A stretch of DNA of 64,000 nucleotides. Source: a virus. Made by a program: the position numbers and the translations under genes. The stretch covers positions 1 to 64,000 of IMG/VR virus record IMGVR_UViG_3300027896_001999, one strand, 5' to 3'. Shown piece by piece: positions 48,903 through 63,140 of the stretch (position 1 is the first letter of the stretch; each line of letters starts with the position of its first letter). Below the pieces are notes generated by a model. That model was not told the DNA's origin, searched no databases, and worked only from the letters and a program-made list of their open reading frames with translations.

Positions 48903-49010
48903 ATGAGTATAGCATTGCGATTTCAAAGGGGTAATAATCCACGCAGAAGCGGGATATATTATATTATCGGAATTACGTTCATCCGGGCAATGGAGTTGTC
49001 AAATGAATAA
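48903..49010 (+). CDS. 35-aa hypothetical peptide
   Basis: ATG 48903, RBS AAGGAG 6 bases upstream. MSIALRFQRGNNPRRSGIYY then IIGITFIRAMELSNE. Its stop overlaps the start of the helicase gene by 8 bases. Small and weakly hydrophobic; may be only a coupling leader for the helicase. Confidence 0.35.
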   Translation: MSIALRFQRGNNPRRSGIYYIIGITFIRAMELSNE

Positions 49011-50651: not shown

Positions 50652-50828
50652 ATGAGCGATAAAAAAGTGTACTTGGGGGATTCAGTGTACGTAGAATACG
50701 ATGGGTATAATTTTGTACTGACCACAGATAATGGTATGGGTGCATCAAACACCATTGTACTGGAACCGACTGTGTACGTTGCACTAACAAGATTCGTAAA
50801 CAATTTAAAGAATAAGGAAGGTGGATGA
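50652..50828 (+). CDS. Conserved 58-aa phage protein
   Basis: RBS GAGGAAA. SDKKVYLGDSVYVEYDGYNFVLTTDNGMGASNTIVLEPTVYVALTRFV: a short all-beta protein whose pattern 'V-Y-L-G-D-x-x-Y-V-x-x-D-G ... I-x-L-E-P-x-V' recurs widely in phages. No known function. Confidence 0.6.
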   Translation: MSDKKVYLGDSVYVEYDGYNFVLTTDNGMGASNTIVLEPTVYVALTRFVNNLKNKEGG

Positions 50829-50829
50829 T

Positions 50830-51723
50830 ATGCCAATAACAAAAGATTTACTTGACAAGAAAAACTACATGATCGGAATTCCGTCGAGAGAACGGAGCTT
50901 CATGATAAGGGAAAGAAAAGGTTTGTGGTTACACACAGACCCCATTGAGAAATACCCTGTGAGAGCCATTGTGAGAGAAAGTGAAAAGGACAATTATGAA
51001 ATGGTTCCGGCCATACTTTGTCCAGACTCTTGCACTATTGCTAACAAGAGACAAAGATTAATGGAATACGCCATTGCTTGCAATTACGAATTTCTTTTTA
51101 TCATAGATGACGACGTGGCGCTCTATTATAGGGATGAAAATTTATCCTCTAAATACACATCCAAGCGAGAGACATTTCAGGCTGAGGATTGCTTTAATCG
51201 TATTCTTTATGAAGCGATTATGCTCTGTGGGGAGAAGGCACCGATAATTGGACTTCCGTTGAAGTTGGGCAGTTTCGGACTGAAATGGAAATTCCCTAAA
51301 AATATTCCCGTAATAAGATTCGTCTGTTATCATGTTCCAACTCTGGTGAAAGAAAACATAAAGATGGATGGCATGGGGACGATGTTCATGAGTGACAGAT
51401 TCACTCACCTTTCACTTTTGAACAAAGGGTATTATTCACTAAGCAACTGCGGGTATGCAGTTGGGGATCAGGGGACTGGATATAAAGGAGGGTGCAGTGT
51501 AACCAGAACAGTCGAACTCCAGTCTGCCTCGGCCATTGCTTTAAGAGATGCTTTTCCGAATCATGTTGAATTGAAAATTAAAAACAATGGGCTCTGGGAC
51601 GCGGAAAGATTGGACTGCCGTATCTCATGGCGGAAGTTCTTAAAAGAAGGAGAAAGCAATTTCCTACCAGCAGAGGAAGGGAAAAGATTAATCGAAAGCG
51701 AGGGGTATAGATGCAGAATATAG
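50830..51723 (+). CDS. GT-A glycosyltransferase-like, TET-associated (TAGT/GREF) type
   Basis: 297 residues from ATG 50830 (RBS AAGGTGG; GTG 50821 is possible). GT-A features: PSRERSF near the start, ANKRQRLMEYAIACNYEFLFIIDDDVALY with the D-D-D metal/UDP-binding motif at ~97-99, and later KYPRIC-like basic stretches. Its downstream paralog (52577-53452) shares PS-R/K-D/E-R-S, DDDV and VPTLV. Such enzymes glycosylate modified bases in phage DNA (TAGT family). First gene of the base-modification operon, beside the aGPT-PPlase. Sugar and acceptor are unknown. Confidence 0.7.
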   Translation: MPITKDLLDKKNYMIGIPSRERSFMIRERKGLWLHTDPIEKYPVRAIVRESEKDNYEMVPAILCPDSCTIANKRQRLMEYAIACNYEFLFIIDDDVALYYRDENLSSKYTSKRETFQAEDCFNRILYEAIMLCGEKAPIIGLPLKLGSFGLKWKFPKNIPVIRFVCYHVPTLVKENIKMDGMGTMFMSDRFTHLSLLNKGYYSLSNCGYAVGDQGTGYKGGCSVTRTVELQSASAIALRDAFPNHVELKIKNNGLWDAERLDCRISWRKFLKEGESNFLPAEEGKRLIESEGYRCRI

Positions 51724-52574
51724 ATTTCAACCAAAAATTCTTAGACAAGTTCATTGAAGTCGCGATAGAGAGACATAAGATATATAAGCTCCGAGAAAGT
51801 GGAGCTCCCCGTCCTTGGACGAACAACGAAATTCTACGGGACTTCTTCTTTTGCAATCTCTTTCGGCAATACGACAGATGTTCAAAATGGATTATAGAAA
51901 ACATAGTTCCTTATGAAAGGTGGGATCTACTGGTTCTGTATCGTTTCATTTCAACGTACACCACATTTGAACATATAAAAGCATCATGCCAATTAGACAA
52001 CTTACCACTTATCCATGATCTATTAAGAGAAATGAAAAATGCAGATTTGAAGATCTTCAGCGGATGTTTTATCCGGAATCCCAGAATCCCGGGTGGTTGG
52101 ACTGAAACTTACAATGTTCCATTTGTTTTGATAGACGAAATAAAGAAAGATGGCACCATTGAATTGGTAATAGCTCTTAATTCTTTAAAGAAGATGGTAG
52201 ACTACTTTTCAAGATTCCCTGGTACAAAATTCTTCATGGGGTACGAATACGCATGTGATCTTGAATACACCAAGTTCTTTAACCCAACCGATAAATTTAC
52301 GTGGGCGAACATGGGGCCAGGAGCGATGAGAGGCATGAGTCTACTGCTCCATGGGAGTGCTTTCCAAAAGATGAAGCAAGACTTTTGGTTAGAGAAAGCA
52401 CAAGAGCTACTGGGAATCATGACCAAGGAAGTCGGTTCCATATTCCCTGAGGAAACCATCACTATGCGGGAAGTAGAACATCAATTATGCGAATTCCAAA
52501 AGTATGTAAAATATGGTTCTATGTCCGAGGGAAGTGAAAGAGTGAAGCATAGAAAATTCAACGGGAGTATATAG
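51711..52574 (+). CDS. Alpha-glutamyl/putrescinyl-thymine pyrophosphorylase-like protein
   Basis: 287 residues. ERHKIYKLRESGAPRPWTNNEILRDFFFCNLFRQYDRCSKWI matches the N-terminal signature of the aGPT-PPlase families ('R-x-x-I-x-x-x-x-x-x-G-x-x-x-P-W-T-x-D-x-I-L-x-x-x-x-F-x-N-x-F-R-x-x-D-R'), which replace pyrophosphorylated 5-hydroxymethyl-thymine with an amine or amino acid in DNA. The C-terminal part has FTWANMGPGAMRGM and REVEHQLCEFQKYVKY. Overlaps the glycosyltransferase by 13 bases. Strong marker of hypermodified pyrimidines. Confidence 0.8.
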   Translation: MQNIDFNQKFLDKFIEVAIERHKIYKLRESGAPRPWTNNEILRDFFFCNLFRQYDRCSKWIIENIVPYERWDLLVLYRFISTYTTFEHIKASCQLDNLPLIHDLLREMKNADLKIFSGCFIRNPRIPGGWTETYNVPFVLIDEIKKDGTIELVIALNSLKKMVDYFSRFPGTKFFMGYEYACDLEYTKFFNPTDKFTWANMGPGAMRGMSLLLHGSAFQKMKQDFWLEKAQELLGIMTKEVGSIFPEETITMREVEHQLCEFQKYVKYGSMSEGSERVKHRKFNGSI

Positions 52575-52576
52575 AT

Positions 52577-53452
52577 ATGAAACACGCAACAATAATTCCG
52601 TCTAAAGACCGGTCTCATCTATTACTTAGATATGCGGATCTGCCGGCACGGAGATTCAATCATCCAATATTCAATACAAAGTTATGGGTGAGCGAAAAGG
52701 AGTACGACACGTATAAGAAAGTGGTAGACGAACTGCGATTGGAACACGTGGAACTGATCGCCGACGATCATGCTAATATAGCGGAATGCCGTCAGAATAT
52801 CTTAATGTATTGCCACGAACATGGGTATGATTATTTATTCTCGCCGGATGACGATGTGCGGTTCCATGCAAGAGAAAGTAATTGGAAAGTAGTTCCATTA
52901 GAGCTGGAGGAAAACGTAAATCTCTTCAATCACATGTCGTCTATCTGTAGTACGGAAGTTCCTCTGGTTTCACTTCGATACAGATTCATGGTCCAGAATT
53001 GCAATACAGCTTATGAGAAGAATTATAAAATCATTATTTTGTATTTCGTTCACGTTCCAACGTTGGTGAACAATGGCGTTTCTTTTAAGCATGAAGGGTT
53101 TCAATTCTACGAAGACAAATATATGCAACTACAACTCTATTCAAAGGGATTCCGTTCCTGCACTTCATCTATGTATGCGACATCTCAACGTCAGCCAGAT
53201 AACACAGAAGGAGGTTGCTTCGCTTATAGAAACATAGAAGAGGCTAATCGTCACTCGCGGATTATGCACGAAGAGTGGCCCGAGTACTCGAAGCTGGTGA
53301 TTAAGAATAGTTGGAAGGAAGGTCCAAGGTTAGAGAACATATGGTACTTCAAAAAATTTTTAAAACCAGATGAATTACGGTATTTCCCAAAAGAACAGAT
53401 GGAACGATTTATGGGAAGAGAAGGTGCTTATAGGCTGGAGGTCCCTGTATGA
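52577..53452 (+). CDS. Second GT-A glycosyltransferase-like enzyme
   Basis: 291 residues. ATIIPSKDRSHLL, ADDHANIAECRQNILMYCHEHGYDYLFSPDDDVRFH (D-D-D motif ~93-95) and the paralogous closing stretch ENIWYFKKFLKPDELRYFPKEQ parallel the enzyme at 50830-51723. Two different GT-A enzymes suggest two sugars or sugar plus chain extension. RBS GGGAG; ends ATGA-coupled to the inserted HNH gene. Confidence 0.7.
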   Translation: MKHATIIPSKDRSHLLLRYADLPARRFNHPIFNTKLWVSEKEYDTYKKVVDELRLEHVELIADDHANIAECRQNILMYCHEHGYDYLFSPDDDVRFHARESNWKVVPLELEENVNLFNHMSSICSTEVPLVSLRYRFMVQNCNTAYEKNYKIIILYFVHVPTLVNNGVSFKHEGFQFYEDKYMQLQLYSKGFRSCTSSMYATSQRQPDNTEGGCFAYRNIEEANRHSRIMHEEWPEYSKLVIKNSWKEGPRLENIWYFKKFLKPDELRYFPKEQMERFMGREGAYRLEVPV

Positions 53453-53907
53453 TCTATGCGGAAGTGGTAGTTGGTAGAAGAAAAATAAGAGCCATAGAAT
53501 ACGAAGTCAATGAGAATGGGTGCTGGATCTGTACGAGTCACTGCTTAGCTTATGGGTATCCTGTAATAGAATTAAACGGAACTAAGAAGTTAAGCCGAGT
53601 TGTCTTGGAACGGTCTTTGGGAAGAAAAATAAAAGAAGGGCTTTGGGCTCTTCATAAGTGCAACAATCGTGCATGTATCAATCCAGAGCATCTGTATGAA
53701 GGCACTCCGGAGGAAAATACAAAGGATTCTATGGAAGCGGGAACCCTTGTTTCTAAGCTGACAGAAGCTCGGGTCTTAGAAATAAGAAAGTCTACTTTGT
53801 CTGGTTCTAAGTTGGGGAAGATTTATGGGTGACCAGAAAATGCATCAATGAGATTAAAAGAAGAGACACATGGAAGCACGTTAAGGAGAAACAAGATGGA
53901 GTATAGT
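53449..53907 (+). pseudogene. HNH endonuclease with frameshifted C-terminal HTH
   Basis: The HNH domain is intact: NGCWICTSHCLAYGYPVI, RVVLERSLGRKIKEGL and HKCNNRACINPEHLYEG. Its HTH begins (SKLTEARVLEIRKSTLSGSKLGKIYG) and then hits TGA at 53830. In the next frame VTRKCINEIKRRDTWKHVKE continues to 53907, matching the intact relative at 62658; one base (GGTGTGG to GGGTGA) is missing. Truncated product 127 aa keeps the nuclease but loses half the DNA-binding domain. The 3' end overlaps the radical SAM start. Confidence 0.65.
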
Positions 53908-54972
53908 AAAGAACGAGTAGAACAACTACGAAAAAACAAACTGACTGTCTTCGAAGACATTCATTATTTAAAAGTCGAACCCAGTCATATCTGTAATCGT
54001 AAATGCAATTTCTGTGGAATCTCCCACAGAGAGTCTGGCATGATGACTATGGAAACTTTTAATAATCTTATAAATGGAGCAGGGAATTCCCTGAAAAGAA
54101 TAGACTTTAGTCTTCAGGGAGAACCGACACTCAATCCCTTGCTACCAGACATGATTGAATTGGTTAGGAACGATTATCCTGATTGCCAAATAATGGTTAT
54201 ATCTAACATGGACAAGATCAAAAGAGAAGGGATGGAATGGTTGTTTGATTTATATGACAGAGGTCTCAATATTTTACAAGCAGATTTATATGACAACGAC
54301 ACAGAGCGATGGTTCTTAGATGATGTAAGAAAACATAAAGAGCACTTTATAAAACGAGACATAGCACTGCACAATGTATATGAAACTAACGATAACCCTT
54401 TCCACTATGCTGGACCAAAGAAGAAGGATATTTATTATATAGTAGAACGATCTGACCATGATGATATGGTTGGTAAAAAGAATTCGGCACGCAATATCCA
54501 TACTTGGGGAGGCAATCTTCCTTTAGAGAAATGGGAACCCTATGGATTATCTTTATCTGACTTCCCTATGAAAAAGAAATGTACGGAGCCTTTGAAATAT
54601 GCCACTATCCGTTTCAATGGCGAGGTTGCTCCTTGTTGCTTTGACGGCGCATGCACAACGACTATTGGAAATGTTAATGACGAACCCATAAATGACATCT
54701 GGAAAGGCAAGAATTTCCAAATGATAAGATTAGTAGCTTCCCTCGGAATGCGAGAAATGATGCTCCCATGTATTCTATGTAATAGATTAAGTTTTAGAAT
54801 TGGTTTGAATCCATACTGGGGGAAAGAGTACTCTTTACAAGAAGTGATAGAAACTCTTAGAACTATCCAAGTTTTATACAAAGAAGAATCTTTATATGGA
54901 AATCTAATGGAATTGAGATCTACTCGTAATCTTCCTCTACATATACAGGAGTTGATAAGCAATGCTCGATAA
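53896..54972 (+). CDS. Radical SAM-SPASM enzyme 1
   Basis: 358 residues from ATG 53896 (RBS AAGGAG, 7 bases). The 4Fe-4S site CNRKCNFC (C-x3-C-x2-C) lies at residues ~33-40, followed by the SAM-binding QGEPTLNPLL. The SPASM-type tail has CTEPLKYATIRFNGEVAPCC ... PCILCN for auxiliary clusters. Such enzymes carry out radical chemistry on peptides or, in phages, on modified nucleobases. Paralog of the next gene. Substrate unknown; position argues for the modified base. Confidence 0.85.
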   Translation: MEYSKERVEQLRKNKLTVFEDIHYLKVEPSHICNRKCNFCGISHRESGMMTMETFNNLINGAGNSLKRIDFSLQGEPTLNPLLPDMIELVRNDYPDCQIMVISNMDKIKREGMEWLFDLYDRGLNILQADLYDNDTERWFLDDVRKHKEHFIKRDIALHNVYETNDNPFHYAGPKKKDIYYIVERSDHDDMVGKKNSARNIHTWGGNLPLEKWEPYGLSLSDFPMKKKCTEPLKYATIRFNGEVAPCCFDGACTTTIGNVNDEPINDIWKGKNFQMIRLVASLGMREMMLPCILCNRLSFRIGLNPYWGKEYSLQEVIETLRTIQVLYKEESLYGNLMELRSTRNLPLHIQELISNAR

Positions 54973-56014
54973 AGAAAGAGTAGCCCATCTGAAGTCAAAG
55001 AATCTTACCGTATTCGAGGAAGTCTACAGCCTTCGCTTAGAGGTCTACAGCGGATGCAATCTAAACTGCTGGTCATGTGGTAGAGGAAGGACGAACCACG
55101 GTACGATGGATTTCTTTACGTTTGAAAAGATATTATCAGACCTCACTGATCGTTGCACTCGTATGGAATTTGGGGTTCAGGGGGAACCATCCCTTCATCC
55201 GGGGTTGGTAGATTTTGTAGCAATGGCAAGAAAAAGATTACCCAAGGCACAACTACTTATAATTTCAAATACAGAGGCTTTCCGTAATGATGGGCACTAT
55301 ACAGTAAAAAGTCTATTTGATGCAGGGTTGAACTTCCTTCACGCAGACATTTATAACGAAAGACAAATGGAGTGGATCTCAAAGTTGAACATAGAGGGAG
55401 TGTCTATTCAAGACTACTATAAACAGAATGTAAATGCCTTTTCTTACAAGGGAAATGCCCAAAAGACCATGATTATCACAAACGAAATTGAAGGGTTCGG
55501 AGCTACAAGAAGCGCCACAAGAGTTCCCCATAATTTTGGTGGGAACCTTCCATATATGCATTGGCAAAAATTGATAGGGATGCAGATAAAGGATTTTCCA
55601 TTAGAAAAGACTTGCGTAGAACCTCTCAAGTATATGACAGTCAACTGGAACGGAGACGTAAACTTGTGTTGCCGGGAAGGGGCGAAAGCTGTCGTAGTTG
55701 GAAACACCAACAACGAAAACCTGCAAGACATATGGCAGGGTGAAGCAATGCAGAAGATACGACTATTGCTATGTAATAAGAAACGAAAGGATATCATACC
55801 TTGCGTACTGTGTAATGCAAGATCTTTCCGTTCAGGGCTCTATCCATATTGGGGACCGTCGTACGGATATGAGGATATAATAAAAGACATTGATAAATAT
55901 TTTTCTTTAAACAAAAAAGAACACATGCATGAAAATCTATTGAGTCTGTTGAGCATAAAAGAATTACCCATACATATAACAAATTATCTAAGGAGGAAGG
56001 ACGAATGCAGTTAA
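54962..56014 (+). CDS. Radical SAM-SPASM enzyme 2
   Basis: 350 residues, overlapping the first by 11 bases. CNLNCWSC (C-x3-C-x2-C) at ~32-39, GVQGEPSLHPGL, and the C-terminal TCVEPLKYMTVNWNGDVNLCC ... PCVLCN. Shares with enzyme 1 the N-terminal DKERVAHLKSKNLTVFEEVYSL and the NFGGNLP/TWGGNLP motif, so it is a tandem duplication followed by divergence. Two sequential radical steps or a heterodimer are possible. Confidence 0.85.
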   Translation: MLDKERVAHLKSKNLTVFEEVYSLRLEVYSGCNLNCWSCGRGRTNHGTMDFFTFEKILSDLTDRCTRMEFGVQGEPSLHPGLVDFVAMARKRLPKAQLLIISNTEAFRNDGHYTVKSLFDAGLNFLHADIYNERQMEWISKLNIEGVSIQDYYKQNVNAFSYKGNAQKTMIITNEIEGFGATRSATRVPHNFGGNLPYMHWQKLIGMQIKDFPLEKTCVEPLKYMTVNWNGDVNLCCREGAKAVVVGNTNNENLQDIWQGEAMQKIRLLLCNKKRKDIIPCVLCNARSFRSGLYPYWGPSYGYEDIIKDIDKYFSLNKKEHMHENLLSLLSIKELPIHITNYLRRKDECS

Positions 56015-56595
56015 AAGATTATTTAGAAAAATATGATACCTTGAAGAACATCAAGCGTTTCAACATGGAAACGGTGATAGAGCCTCAAAATCTTTGCGAC
56101 CATGGACATGGTGTCGGAACTTTGTATTATCTATTGTGCAAAGAAATGGGGGTGCTTATTTCCGTAGACACTTTGTTTATGGTCATGAATCACGACTTCG
56201 CGGAAGCATACACAAGTGACCTGAACAGAAGGGTGAAGGATAAGACAAAAAAGACTTCAGAAGCATGGAAAGTAATAGAAAATTCCAATCTTCCTTTGTC
56301 GTTGATTTGTTGGACAGATGAATCCATAAAGAGTTCATTGGGTGGGTTTGATGAATCTATCCGGTACATGGTATTTCAAATCGCAGATGAATGGGAAGCC
56401 ATGCAATATTGCTTAAGGGAAGTCAACAAAGGTAATTCTTATATGAAAAGACCTCTTGGGGTCTACATGGAAATGGTTAATGAAAAGATAAGATCCCTTA
56501 GATCTTGCGGTAAGAATTATGAAATATGCTGTGACTATCTTCTTTTACTTATAGAAAGAATAGACGTAGAATACGACTTGGGGGCAAATATATGA
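56005..56595 (+). CDS. HD-domain phosphohydrolase, YfbR-like 5'-deoxyribonucleotidase
   Basis: 196 residues, RBS GGAGGAAGG. HD motifs: CDHGHGVGTLYYLLCK, then VMNHDFAEAYTSDL (H-D and the E-x-x-T-x-D signature of YfbR) and a late Asp in FQIADEWEA. YfbR-type enzymes dephosphorylate dNMPs. Here it may remove a competing canonical nucleotide so that the modified one is used. ATGA-coupled to the thymidylate-synthase-like gene. Confidence 0.7.
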   Translation: MQLKDYLEKYDTLKNIKRFNMETVIEPQNLCDHGHGVGTLYYLLCKEMGVLISVDTLFMVMNHDFAEAYTSDLNRRVKDKTKKTSEAWKVIENSNLPLSLICWTDESIKSSLGGFDESIRYMVFQIADEWEAMQYCLREVNKGNSYMKRPLGVYMEMVNEKIRSLRSCGKNYEICCDYLLLLIERIDVEYDLGANI

Positions 56596-57428
56596 ATCAC
56601 ATTATTGATGAATATGAAAGCATGAATAAAGCATACTTATCTCTTCTCTTCCAATTACTTAATAGTCCCACATATATTTCCACCACTCGGAAAGGGGAAA
56701 CCATATCCGAGATGCTTAATGCGGGGTTCATTTTGAAAGATCCTACAAAATGTTTTGCCACTTGCAGGAATATGTCTTTAAAGTATCTTGATGGGGAATT
56801 GGAGTTCTATTTAAGTGGAAGCCCTTATCTTAAGGACATAACCAAGCACTCTAAGTTCTGGGAGAAAGTCACAGATGATGATAGAACAGTGAATTCCAAT
56901 TATGGGAAACTACTATTCTATGACAGAAACCATCACAACTACACTCAGTTTGAATATGCTAAACGAATGTTGTTGGAAAATCCAGACAGTAAGAAAGCGG
57001 TCATGGTCATTTACAGTAAAGAAAACGCACACGACAGCCAGGACAATCCATGTACGATGTTCCTGCAATTTTTCATAAGGGAAAAGAAACTCCACCTCAT
57101 AGTAAAGATGCGCTCATCAGACATATGGTATGGTCTTCCGTACGATGTACCATTTTTTGTTTTCGTTCAGTACAAGATGTTGCATGCTCTTGAAAGATAT
57201 TATCCATCACTACGAATGGGTCTGTACAACCATCAGTCTGGTAGCCTTCATCTATACAGTAGGAATGCATCGGTGGCTCACAGTACTCTGAAAAGAGATA
57301 GAGAGCTTTGGGAAAATCTAAGTCTGACTGAGGAGTTCTTAGATTTTTGTGAATCGATTCAAACAGAGCTCTTTATCAAGTATATTAAAACCAAAGTAGG
57401 GGAGGGGAAAGGAGATGTCGAATATTGA
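56592..57428 (+). CDS. Thymidylate-synthase-family (deoxy)nucleotide hydroxymethylase
   Basis: 278 residues. Motifs: R33 in STTRKGE, the substrate loop ELEFYLSGSPYLKDI, catalytic C154 in DNPCTMFLQF, phosphate-binding R174-S-S-D177 and GLPYDVPFF. At the position of the dUMP-selecting Asn of thymidylate synthases there is Asp (D185), as in T4 dCMP hydroxymethylase, so it may make 5-hydroxymethyl-dCMP instead of acting on dUMP. The next gene but one is dCMP deaminase. Product assignment is open. Confidence 0.78.
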   Translation: MNHIIDEYESMNKAYLSLLFQLLNSPTYISTTRKGETISEMLNAGFILKDPTKCFATCRNMSLKYLDGELEFYLSGSPYLKDITKHSKFWEKVTDDDRTVNSNYGKLLFYDRNHHNYTQFEYAKRMLLENPDSKKAVMVIYSKENAHDSQDNPCTMFLQFFIREKKLHLIVKMRSSDIWYGLPYDVPFFVFVQYKMLHALERYYPSLRMGLYNHQSGSLHLYSRNASVAHSTLKRDRELWENLSLTEEFLDFCESIQTELFIKYIKTKVGEGKGDVEY

Positions 57429-57693
57429 AAGAATCATAGACCATAGGAATGGGAAATTGTCTTATGTAACCAAATCTTTGGTATTCCCCCCAGACGGAAG
57501 TGTGAAAAAGATTTGTTCAAAATGTAAAAAATCTTTACCAATAGAAAGTGGATTCCATGTGACTTCACGTATAAAAGGAGACACGAAATACTTGTATAAT
57601 CATTGCAAGTGTAAAGAGTGTAGAAGAGCAGAAAGAAGAAGCTACTATAAAGATGGACCAAAGATAATATCAAAAGGAGAAAAGAAGAAATGA
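57415..57693 (+). CDS. Zinc-ribbon protein, endonuclease-VII/HNH-like fragment
   Basis: 92 residues. ICSKCKKSLPIESGFHVTS ... YLYNHCKCKECRRAERRSY: two CxxC knuckles with the spacing of phage zinc ribbons that precede HNH/endonuclease VII domains, followed by a Lys-rich tail. No nuclease residues remain. Overlaps both neighbours by stop-start coupling. May bind DNA on its own. Confidence 0.55.
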   Translation: MSNIERIIDHRNGKLSYVTKSLVFPPDGSVKKICSKCKKSLPIESGFHVTSRIKGDTKYLYNHCKCKECRRAERRSYYKDGPKIISKGEKKK

Positions 57694-58169
57694 CTATACT
57701 CAAACCAAAAGATGTGGAAACTCTAATTCAAATGGCTCATGCTCAAACTCGTTTCTCTATGTGCCTTAAAAAGAAGGTTGGAGCAGCTCTATACAGCACC
57801 ACCGATAGAGCCATCTACGGATTAGGTCATGGGGGACCAAAGATTCCATGTAAAGAATGTGTAAGAAAAAAGTATGAATGGACTCAAGATGGGTGTTGGT
57901 CCATTCATGCAGAGATACGTGCAATATTTGATTATTTCAAAAAAGAAGGGTACAACAATCCATTCATTTCTTGTGTCATGTTCACCACCCATGGTCCTTG
58001 TGATGGGTGTTTGAAATATATGAACTATTTTGGGATAGGTTCTGTTGTCTACGATATCCCTTATCACAATGACTATTCAAAGTGGGTTGGAAAGATAAGA
58101 GTATTCTCTAAAGAAGAATATCTTAAGAACTGTTACGACATAGACGAACCATGGGAGCCAAAAGAATGA
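57690..58169 (+). CDS. dCMP deaminase
   Basis: 159 residues with the zinc-deaminase motif: HAEIRAI (His ligand and catalytic Glu) and PCDGCLKYM (PCxxC), in the order and spacing of deoxycytidylate deaminases. RFSMCLKKKVGAALYSTTDRAIYGLGHGGP is the usual N-terminal part. It makes dUMP from dCMP, feeding thymidylate or 5-hydroxymethyl-dUMP. ATGA coupling on both sides. Confidence 0.85.
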   Translation: MTILKPKDVETLIQMAHAQTRFSMCLKKKVGAALYSTTDRAIYGLGHGGPKIPCKECVRKKYEWTQDGCWSIHAEIRAIFDYFKKEGYNNPFISCVMFTTHGPCDGCLKYMNYFGIGSVVYDIPYHNDYSKWVGKIRVFSKEEYLKNCYDIDEPWEPKE

Positions 58170-60010
58170 AAACATATTATGACTTCAGAAAAGATCCATT
58201 GATAGCAGTTGATATAGAGTCTAAAGACCCTATGTTGAAAGAGAAAGGACCTGGAGTGTACAGAAAAGACGGATATGTGATTGGGTGTTCTTTTTCAAAT
58301 GGACCAGTGTCCGAATACTGTCCTATAAAACATCCTGACACTACCACGGAAGAATCTGAAAAGAATCGTAAGTATATGGAAGAGCAGTTATCGGGGACCA
58401 ACAGAAAAGTCTTTGCCAATGGCTTATACGACCTTGATTGGTTAATAAACTTCGAAGGATTCAAAGTCAATGGTACGTATGAAGATGTACAAATAGCAGA
58501 ACCAATACTTGATGAATACAGAAGATCCTACTCTTTGAATTCATTGTCGGGTATCTATTTACAAGATGCCAAAGGCTATTCCCCTATAAGAGAGTATTGT
58601 CTACAGCAAGGATGGAAGATGGGTCCTAAGGATCAAGGAATAAATCATCTATGGAAAATTCCCTCTACTGTGGTAGAAGACTATGCAAGAAAGGACTCGG
58701 AACTGACTTTAAAGATATTCAAACTACAAGAAGAAGCCTTAAAAGAAAAGCATTTAGATTTTATATACAATATGGAAATGAAGCTATTTCCTCTTCTATT
58801 ACAAATGAGAAAGAACGGAGTTCGTTTGAATATGGGGAAATTGACTAAGACAGGGTTGGCCTTGGCGGACTTGGCTTATGATATTCAAGAAGAATTGGAA
58901 AAGATCGATGGATCAGAAGTGAATCCTAATTCGTCCAATGACTTAGAAAGAATATTTATGAAGCTCCATCTCCCTGTGCATTACGGTGAACCAACAGACT
59001 TGATGATGATGAAAGGTCTTACCAGGGGAAATCCTCGTTTTGATAAGAATACTTTGAACAGAATAGATAATCCCATCGTAAGAAAGATATTAGAGCTTCG
59101 CCATATAAAGACTCTCCTAAGTCTGTTCATAAATCAATACCCGGAGTTAGTGACGGACGACCGTCTTCATTGTCAATTCAATCAATTAAGAAGTGATGAA
59201 TATGGAACGGTGACAGGAAGGTTCTCTTCTTCTAATCCAAATCTACAACAAGTGAGTTCTAAAGAAGAAGAAGACTATCTCCATTCCAACAGTGAAATAC
59301 TGAGTGGATTAGTTATAAGAAAGTTGTTTGAACCTGAAGAAGGTTGTGATTGGCTACAAGGTGACTGGAATCAGATAGAGTACAGACTAATAGCACATTA
59401 TGCTTTGGGGGAAGGTTCAGAAAAGATAAGGAAAAGATACAATGAAGATCCCAATACAGACTATCACAGTGAACTTGGAATTATGACGGGAATAACTAAT
59501 AGAAAGACTATCAAGACTCTGAACTTCGGAGCGGCTTACTCTATGGGTGCAAGACGGATGGCAGAAACTTATAGTTGGGATCTTGAAGAAGCCCGAGAAG
59601 TCTATAAGATGTATCACGACAAAGTCCCATTCATAAAAGAGACCAGCAACAGAGTTGGTATGAAGGCAAAGAGAGTTGGCTTCATAAGAACCATATGCGG
59701 TAGAAAGGCAAGAATCCCTTCTGAAGACAAGTCGTATGTAATGTTCAATAGACTAATTCAAGGGAGTGCTGCTGATATTATGAAGAAGGCTATGGTAGAC
59801 GCTTATGAGGCAGGAATATTTGAAACTTTGGCACCTCATTTAACCATTCATGATGAATTGGATTGTAGTATCCCACGTACAAAGGAAGGGACCGAAGCCG
59901 GTAAAGAATTAAAGCACATAATGGAAAATTGCGTAAAACTAAAAGTTCCCATCATAGCCAATTTTAAAATTGGTCCAAATTGGGGAGAACTAAAAAATTG
60001 GGAGGAGTAA
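58166..60010 (+). CDS. DNA polymerase I family (family A), with 3'-5' exonuclease
   Basis: 614 residues from ATG 58166 (ATGA overlap, GGAG at 8 bases). The exonuclease has IAVDIESKDP (Exo I), NGLYDLDWL (Exo II) and DYARKDSELT (Exo III). Polymerase motifs: A, GDWNQIEYRLIAH; B, R-K-T-I-K-T-L-N-F-G in the O-helix with Phe; C, TIHDELDCS. Motif A has W-N where Y-S is usual. Replicative enzyme; accepts or tolerates modified templates by implication. Confidence 0.92.
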   Translation: MKTYYDFRKDPLIAVDIESKDPMLKEKGPGVYRKDGYVIGCSFSNGPVSEYCPIKHPDTTTEESEKNRKYMEEQLSGTNRKVFANGLYDLDWLINFEGFKVNGTYEDVQIAEPILDEYRRSYSLNSLSGIYLQDAKGYSPIREYCLQQGWKMGPKDQGINHLWKIPSTVVEDYARKDSELTLKIFKLQEEALKEKHLDFIYNMEMKLFPLLLQMRKNGVRLNMGKLTKTGLALADLAYDIQEELEKIDGSEVNPNSSNDLERIFMKLHLPVHYGEPTDLMMMKGLTRGNPRFDKNTLNRIDNPIVRKILELRHIKTLLSLFINQYPELVTDDRLHCQFNQLRSDEYGTVTGRFSSSNPNLQQVSSKEEEDYLHSNSEILSGLVIRKLFEPEEGCDWLQGDWNQIEYRLIAHYALGEGSEKIRKRYNEDPNTDYHSELGIMTGITNRKTIKTLNFGAAYSMGARRMAETYSWDLEEAREVYKMYHDKVPFIKETSNRVGMKAKRVGFIRTICGRKARIPSEDKSYVMFNRLIQGSAADIMKKAMVDAYEAGIFETLAPHLTIHDELDCSIPRTKEGTEAGKELKHIMENCVKLKVPIIANFKIGPNWGELKNWEE

Positions 60011-62657: not shown

Positions 62658-63140
62658 ATGATCTATGCGGAAGTGGTCAGTTTAAGGAAAGGGTACAAAA
62701 GAAAATCCATTGAATACGAAGTCAATGAGAATGGGTGCTGGATCTGTACGAGTCATTACTTAAGAGATGGGTATCCTCAAATAGAGTCAAATAGAGAAAT
62801 GAAAAACTTGAACCGAGTCGTCTTAGAACGGTCTTTGGGGAGAAAGATAAAAGAAGGGTTTGGGGCTCTTCATAAATGTGGCAACAGAGTATGCATCAAT
62901 CCAGATCACATCTATGAAGGTTCTCGTGAAGACAATGCAAGGGATTCTAAAAGACATGGTACTTTCGTACAAGGAGAAGATCATCCAAAATCTAAGTTGA
63001 CGGAAGCTCAGGTCTTAGAGATAAGAAAATCCATTTTGTCTGGACCGGAGTTGGGTAAGATTTATGGTGTGGGAAGAGGTTGCATCAATAATATCAAAAG
63101 AAGAGTCACATGGAAACATCTTAAGGATCAACCATCATGA
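62658..63140 (+). CDS. HNH homing-type endonuclease with HTH
   Basis: 160 residues. HNH core NGCWICTSHYLRDGYPQIES, LERSLGRKIKEGFGALHKCGNRVCINPDHIYEGSREDN, then the C-terminal HTH SKLTEAQVLEIRKSILSGPELGKIYGVGRGCINNIKRRVTWKHL. Intact sister of the broken gene at 53449 (the N-terminal ~60 residues are nearly the same). Free-standing homing endonucleases of this type spread between phages. No intron or inserted target is visible. Confidence 0.82.
   Translation: MIYAEVVSLRKGYKRKSIEYEVNENGCWICTSHYLRDGYPQIESNREMKNLNRVVLERSLGRKIKEGFGALHKCGNRVCINPDHIYEGSREDNARDSKRHGTFVQGEDHPKSKLTEAQVLEIRKSILSGPELGKIYGVGRGCINNIKRRVTWKHLKDQPS

Follow-up and report, generated by a model that had tools for sequence, protein, structure and literature searches.

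Phage gene clusters for hypermodified pyrimidines are a known kind of system. The thymidine hypermodification clusters compared here are those of the Pseudomonas phages M6 and PaMx11, the Salmonella phage ViI, the Delftia phage phiW-14 and the Bacillus phage SP10, and for cytosine there is the gentiobiosyl-5-hydroxymethylcytosine system of phages T2 and T6, consisting of gp42, an alpha-glycosyltransferase (alpha-GT) and TAGT, which places the second glucose on 5-hydroxymethylcytosine (5-hmC) (PMC13216743, PMC13390438). In a T6-like phage gp42 directly adjoins TAGT. This paper deals with an operon in the IMG/VR virus record IMGVR_UViG_3300027896_001999, a linear record of 66,469 bp that may be incomplete, of which bases 1-64000 are called the window. 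At 50821-58169 it carries ten plus-strand open reading frames (ORFs), coupled or nearly so (start/stop overlaps or gaps of 15 bp at most), and these probably constitute a cluster that makes glycosylated 5-hmC with one or two sugars, the sugar being oxidised or epimerised by radical S-adenosylmethionine (SAM) enzymes. The original prediction of a coupled operon for a hypermodified base, with an uncommon gene set and directly before a DNA polymerase gene, is supported by the family matches: all the genes that it named are there on the plus strand, and the gene for a family A polymerase (PolA) stands directly 3' of that for dCMP deaminase. An HNH endonuclease gene and a 92-aa ORF, however, interrupt the run.

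In M6 and PaMx11 the helical protein HMUDK_hel, a hydroxymethylase of thymidylate synthase (TS) fold, an HD phosphohydrolase, a dCMP deaminase and PolA stand in an order similar to that of the window. Both phages, unlike the window, have a dUMP-type hydroxymethylase (Asn), a P-loop DNA kinase and an amino acid:DNA transferase, and M6 has in addition a pyridoxal phosphate enzyme and a radical SAM enzyme of the gp53 type, whereas the window has an Asp, dCMP-type enzyme, two TAGT proteins and twitch-domain radical SAM enzymes, without kinase or transferase. With T2 and T6 the window shares the dCMP-hydroxymethylase signature, TAGT and the dCMP deaminase, but HMUDK_hel and the radical SAM enzymes are added and the HD enzyme perhaps stands in for the gp56 dCTPase. 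None of the characterised systems found here combines a dCMP-type hydroxymethylase, a TAGT pair, a kinase-less HMUDK_hel and twitch radical SAM enzymes, although priority is not claimed.

The hydroxymethylase bears most directly on which base is modified. The residue at position 177 of E. coli ThyA decides which pyrimidine is accepted, uracil with Asn and cytosine with Asp, as established by mutagenesis and structures (PMC8670742, PMC5175136, PMC6400193), and in the window enzyme Asp185 replaces Asn177 ('GLP-YDV' aligned under 'GLP-FNI'). The catalytic Cys is present, together with an NSNYG motif common to T4 gp42 (Ser94, Tyr96), whose Tyr96 touches the amino group of cytosine (PMC6400193). 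T4 dCMP hydroxymethylase is the best PDB match (4.8e-22); MilA, which hydroxymethylates CMP, likewise ranks ahead of any thymidylate synthase. Because of the Asp, the NSNYG motif and the best match, the predicted precursor is 5-hydroxymethyl-dCMP (hm-dCMP) and not 5-hydroxymethyl-dUMP, and cytosine is a likelier modified base than thymine. Thus the TS family assignment of the original prediction holds, while the type is corrected to dCMP, and a thymine-type base is disfavoured, since the Asn of the M6 and ViI dUMP hydroxymethylases is replaced. Among the matches listed in the first HMUDK_hel scan, Asp at this position occurred only in the window and in four relatives (L004, L017, L018 and L019), and Asn in every other locus with a readable position; Asp was also seen in L185 and L186, two additional relatives. 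Several Asp rows are long branches in the TS tree, where the window clade (support 97) lies within a group of Asp-type enzymes from phages (support 92), and the Asn enzymes of the remaining HMUDK_hel loci lie on the opposite side (support 95). The simplest reading is that this lineage swapped its hydroxymethylase, by which the decoration would have moved from thymine to cytosine; one such exchange may let a phage lineage shift the same decoration machinery between the two bases.

A thymine-type route, in which 5-hydroxymethyldeoxyuridine (5-hmdU) in DNA is activated with HMUDK_hel, linked to an amine or amino acid, rearranged by the radical SAM enzymes and also glycosylated, draws on the homology of the window HMUDK_hel protein to M6 gp55, on the backbone of TS, HD, PolA and dCMP deaminase shared with M6 and on the dUMP-type enzymes in most HMUDK_hel loci. 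Besides the Asp-type hydroxymethylase, the missing enzymes speak against it. M6 gp54, encoded immediately 5' of gp55, is a P-loop kinase with a Walker A motif (MKYINVRGCNGSGKTTLL), and neither it nor M6 gp51 (the amino acid:DNA transferase), gp52 or gp53 has a homologue in the full record, where, of the ORF products, only a UvrD-like helicase at 49003 has a convincing canonical Walker A motif. A profile of four kinases, which recovered the kinase in all seven control records, detected a 5-hmdU DNA kinase in none of 30 other records, a set that covers the window and its relatives as well as the complete genome of the Brevibacterium phage LuckyBarnes. PF18724, the amino acid:DNA transferase family, was likewise not found in the record, while the M6 control matched at 2.3e-48. 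The lack of the kinase from the window, already remarked in the original prediction, is therefore borne out for all 66,469 bp, and the amine- or amino-acid-linked product proposed there is unsupported because both enzymes are absent. As the radical SAM enzymes, too, are of the twitch, BtrN-like kind, this route is very unlikely. For a TET/JBP route, no Tet_JBP dioxygenase match was obtained in six records, and no control genome matched either. M6 gp54 (L003, 5686-6249) is labelled 'terminase small subunit' in RefSeq, a label shared by its homologues in many other phages.

The two GT-A glycosyltransferases of the original prediction, GT1 and GT2, are confirmed as members of the TAGT DNA-glucosyltransferase family and flank the HMUDK_hel protein. 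GT2 scores above the PF20691 cut-off and GT1 below it, yet GT1 matches phrog_842 at 6e-18, and a DDD motif (DXD-type) is invariant in the TAGT alignment (A3), which was itself too divergent to serve as a scan query. Both are predicted from their family to transfer sugar to 5-hydroxymethylpyrimidine DNA.

RS1 and RS2, the radical SAM enzymes, group with others from HMUDK_hel loci in a 14-protein family with seven invariant cluster cysteines: in RS2 numbering C32, C36 and C39 (CX3CX2C, the SAM cluster) and C218, C236, C281 and C284 (a one-cluster twitch site). By profile search BtrN is matched at 5e-20 across both domains, and in the fold search with RS2 BtrN came first (E 1.6e-13, prob 1.00), with SuiB, anSME, BlsE and SpeY lower. 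A cyclitol alcohol is oxidised by two electrons in the BtrN reaction (PMC9012708); BlsE acts on cytosylglucuronic acid, whose sugar it decarboxylates (PMC3715490). The radical SAM core, the one-cluster twitch and the cysteine positions of BtrN, SpeY and BlsE, which belong to aminoglycoside and nucleoside antibiotic pathways, match those of the window enzymes; the latter, however, are phage-encoded in a DNA-modification operon, share about 20% identity with them and presumably act on polymeric glycosylated DNA. By analogy, RS1 and RS2 are predicted to oxidise a sugar or cyclitol alcohol. Of the expectation of two radical SAM-SPASM enzymes, the presence and the domains stand (SPASM matches of 1e-12 and 2e-12 by Pfam), but they resemble the cyclitol dehydrogenase BtrN and not the M6 gp53 type, for which the record gave no match. 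Used as a single-protein query, the radical SAM protein gave no match in IMG/VR or phage isolates, whereas the alignment query did give matches.

If the radical SAM enzymes served peptide or cofactor maturation or another function and HMUDK_hel were vestigial, the product would be plain T-even-like glucosylated 5-hmC. TAGT with a dCMP hydroxymethylase is the T6 arrangement, the radical SAM proteins have sub-threshold NCBIfam matches to metalloenzyme maturases, and in the relative L018 no twitch radical SAM protein was matched. The twitch enzyme is nevertheless tied to TAGT across loci (13/15 radical SAM loci, p=0.003) and adjoins a GT or HMUDK_hel in several clusters (directly 3' of the GT in the Asn-type loci L036, L070 and L091), a B12-binding radical SAM protein replaces it in the same operon of two relatives, and HMUDK_hel is well conserved, so this product is quite unlikely.

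The arrangement recurs in six independently sequenced relatives (L004, L017, L018, L019, L185 and L186) and is therefore not due to chance. All seven clade members have HMUDK_hel, at least one GT and a dCMP deaminase gene adjoining that of the hydroxymethylase, while the second GT and the radical SAM enzymes vary. Three of the six relatives have the twitch enzyme and two the B12-binding radical SAM protein (L017, 8699-9985; L185, 1689-2996, the latter called by its similarity to L017), which fits a variable tailoring slot for the sugar or the base. No match came from a near-identity search of phage isolates. In the cellular collection L185 is matched most closely by a contig of 7.4 kb that was assigned to a metagenome-assembled genome of a Thermoplasmata archaeon; this may be a mis-binned virus contig or point to an archaeal host.

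The proximity of deaminase and hydroxymethylase, rare in other HMUDK_hel loci, would also suit a mixed route in which dCMP is the substrate of the hydroxymethylase and the hm-dCMP formed is then deaminated to hm-dUMP by the dCMP deaminase, giving a glycosylated and radically edited 5-hydroxymethyluracil (hmU) in DNA. Some 5-substituted dCMPs are indeed accepted by dCMP deaminases, but T4, with the same pair of enzymes, has hydroxymethylcytosine in its DNA. Furthermore, contigs selected for modified cytosine are specifically those in which dCMP deaminase domains accompany TS-family enzymes (PMC8670742). The mixed route is thus unlikely.

The HMUDK_hel protein matches PF18723 with 143.5 bits against a cut-off of 25; the older name of this family is aGPT-PPlase clade 1, Pfam now calls it '5-hmdU DNA kinase, helical domain', and phage isolates carry both labels, so that the aGPT-PPlase-like assignment was right as to family, although here the protein occurs without a kinase despite the present family name. 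Its AlphaFold model (pLDDT 92) is closest, among the viral models of BFVD, to helical proteins of the 5-hmdU DNA kinase, the SP10 kinase being one of them. The 637-aa SP10 '5-hmdU DNA kinase' matches the fold over about half its own length, and its length fits a fusion of a P-loop and a helical part. Amino acid:DNA transferase proteins are matched more weakly in the same search.

An IMG/VR alignment scan with HMUDK_hel gave at least 80 loci, and 90 loci were scored with profiles built in this analysis; since they were cut at 10 kb and are related by descent, the p-values for loci serve as guides only. TS was found in 82, a TAGT-type GT in 45 and the kinase in 13 of the 90, and GT and kinase together in none (Fisher p=9e-5). 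With HMUDK_hel clustered at 60% identity, the counts were 12 and 16 with none shared (p=1e-3), while at 45% both kinds were mixed within two clusters. The amino acid:DNA transferase was strongly associated with the kinase. A small Walker A protein was encoded within 6 kb of HMUDK_hel in 11 of 13 kinase loci, in 2 of 44 GT loci, where both look like other P-loop proteins, and in 0 of 14 methyltransferase-class loci. Where neither kinase nor TAGT is present, a class I methyltransferase often stands beside HMUDK_hel (L049 by Pfam; close homologues in L068 and L034 by eye), a GT-B enzyme adjoins it in L021, L023 and L040 and, less certainly, a sulfotransferase-like protein does so in L029. Along the HMUDK_hel tree the kinase/GT state switches at least 6 times and the twitch radical SAM enzyme at least 8 times. 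Since no locus pairs the kinase with TAGT, and the slot is elsewhere taken by a methyltransferase or a GT-B enzyme, HMUDK_hel looks like the common partner of interchangeable hydroxymethylpyrimidine-tailoring enzymes. The family occurs in loci with no kinase as well, where it is presumably in use, and we infer that it binds the hydroxymethyl base or presents it to exchangeable tailoring enzymes. A family whose first name was that of a pyrophosphorylase and whose present one is that of a DNA kinase would then not have to be either, and HMUDK_hel with the hydroxymethylase would be the stable core of a modular system in which the tailoring enzyme is exchanged, predicting that environmental phages contain a large set of DNA bases with sugar, methyl or radical modifications yet to be measured.

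This idea is partly testable now in isolated phages such as LuckyBarnes. Like the window, LuckyBarnes has two TAGT genes beside those of HMUDK_hel and a hydroxymethylase, with no kinase in the complete genome; unlike it, the hydroxymethylase is Asn-type (dUMP), and no twitch radical SAM enzyme occurs within the stretch examined. Its cluster (L016, 8830-11292) runs TS, TAGT, TAGT, HMUDK_hel, the last being the hitherto unrecognised gp38, and the phage is a candidate for glycosylated hmU. In the Microbacterium phages Lucky3 (L183, 1353-2823 and 4944-5750) and Chepli (L184), HMUDK_hel is accompanied by a hydroxymethylase of the Asp, dCMP-like type that bears the annotation 'thymidylate synthase', and in Lucky3 a Walker A protein is encoded directly upstream of HMUDK_hel; this gene set is possibly a 5-hmC DNA kinase pathway. 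Candidate tailoring genes near HMUDK_hel include those for the methyltransferase of L049 (9126-9965), the GT-B enzyme of L040 (10921-12213), the sulfotransferase-like protein of L029 (2402-3022) and an FkbM methyltransferase candidate of L058 (11139-11837), as well as a look-alike, by eye and with no Pfam match, of PIG-L deacetylases in L064 (11668-12282).

The families, active-site residues and conservation, together with the absence of kinase and amino acid transferase, are read from the sequences, and the substrate order that we propose from them is as follows. The TS-fold enzyme would convert dCMP to hm-dCMP, the HD phosphohydrolase would deplete the canonical nucleotide that competes with it (probably dCTP/dCMP), and the deaminase, as in T4, would turn dCMP into dUMP for dTMP synthesis. 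Host kinases would probably phosphorylate hm-dCMP, and the family A polymerase would then build hm-dCTP into DNA. HMUDK_hel would bind and present the hydroxymethyl base in DNA, GT1 would attach a sugar and GT2 maybe a second, and RS1 and RS2, on the BtrN analogy, would apply 5'-deoxyadenosyl-radical chemistry to the sugar hydroxyls, most likely a two-electron dehydrogenation to a keto sugar, or an epimerisation. The purpose may be escape from host nucleases. It is conceivable, and offered tentatively, that the twitch enzymes rebuild the attached sugar in place (giving, for instance, 5-hmC with a keto hexose or an epimerised one) and that HMUDK_hel is a DNA-presenting subunit indifferent to base and reaction, which takes a kinase, a GT-A, a GT-B or a methyltransferase.

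Several points weigh against glycosylated, sugar-edited 5-hmC as the product. The phosphate-binding pair Arg126/127 of ThyA is Lys-Lys in all seven clade members, a departure from the dCMP hydroxymethylases, and because this is a difference in conserved residues the window enzyme is called only 'predicted dCMP-type'. MilA likewise has Lys at the first of these positions, and CMP rather than dCMP could be the substrate; Ser at ThyA position 167, which favours deoxynucleotides, is kept. The dCMP deaminase might act on hm-dCMP and take the pathway back to hmU. No T4 gp1-like P-loop hm-dCMP kinase or MazG was found in the record, another difference from T2 and T6. The radical SAM structure model has only moderate confidence (pLDDT 72), and the substrate of these enzymes is not predictable from homology. 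As for DNA presentation, the similarity of HMUDK_hel to helix-hairpin-helix (HhH) DNA glycosylases is non-significant in both the PDB fold search and hhalign.

That HMUDK_hel is itself an HhH DNA glycosylase was considered and rejected: OGG and MagIII were among the top PDB fold matches and E. coli Nth was compared by hhalign, neither with significance, and the likeness to base-flipping HhH glycosylases is suggestive, no more than a lead. A Z-genome (2-aminoadenine), suggested by the dATPase-like HD protein and the DpoZ-like polymerase, was also rejected, as no adenylosuccinate synthetase homologue was found and DpoZ scored below the cut-off.

Table 1. Features of the modification operon and the adjoining polymerase gene in the window
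Feature	Position	Strand	Evidence
GT1, GT-A glycosyltransferase, TAGT / beta-glucosyl-HMC-alpha-glucosyltransferase family	50821..51723	+	phrog_842 6e-18; PF20691 7e-4
HEL, HMUDK_hel (aGPT-PPlase clade 1) helical protein, no P-loop	51711..52574	+	PF18723 1.1e-41
GT2, second TAGT-family GT-A glycosyltransferase	52577..53452	+	PF20691 7e-7 (above cut-off); phrog_842 8e-20
HNH endonuclease, probable homing-type insertion outside the pathway	53449..53832	+	HNH_3 3e-7; absent from L004
RS1, twitch-domain radical SAM enzyme, BtrN-like	53848..54972	+	PF13186 1e-12; PF04055 6e-8; seven conserved cluster cysteines
RS2, twitch-domain radical SAM enzyme, BtrN-like	54962..56014	+	BtrN 4e-11 by phmmer, 5e-20 by profile
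HD phosphohydrolase, YfbR-like	56005..56595	+	PF12917 2e-12; phrog_7076 'dATP triphosphohydrolase' 1.5e-7
Predicted dCMP 5-hydroxymethylase, thymidylate-synthase fold	56592..57428	+	Thymidylat_synt 2e-22; T4 dCMP hydroxymethylase
Asp185 codon, base-specificity residue of the hydroxymethylase	57144..57146	+	alignment to E. coli ThyA
92-aa zinc-ribbon/HNH-like ORF, probable insertion	57415..57693	+	weak endonuclease PHROG matches; absent from L004
dCMP deaminase	57690..58169	+	PF00383 2e-10; phrog_174 3.5e-18
Family A DNA polymerase, presumed replicase	58151..60010	+	PolA models 6e-63 to 1e-86

A sigma-70 promoter scan gave no excess over shuffles, and GT1 has an alternative ATG start at 50830. 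The HNH endonuclease gene and the 92-aa ORF are probably insertions because both are missing in L004. The former, between GT2 and RS1, is the shorter of two HNH paralogues in the window, the second being at 62658-63140.

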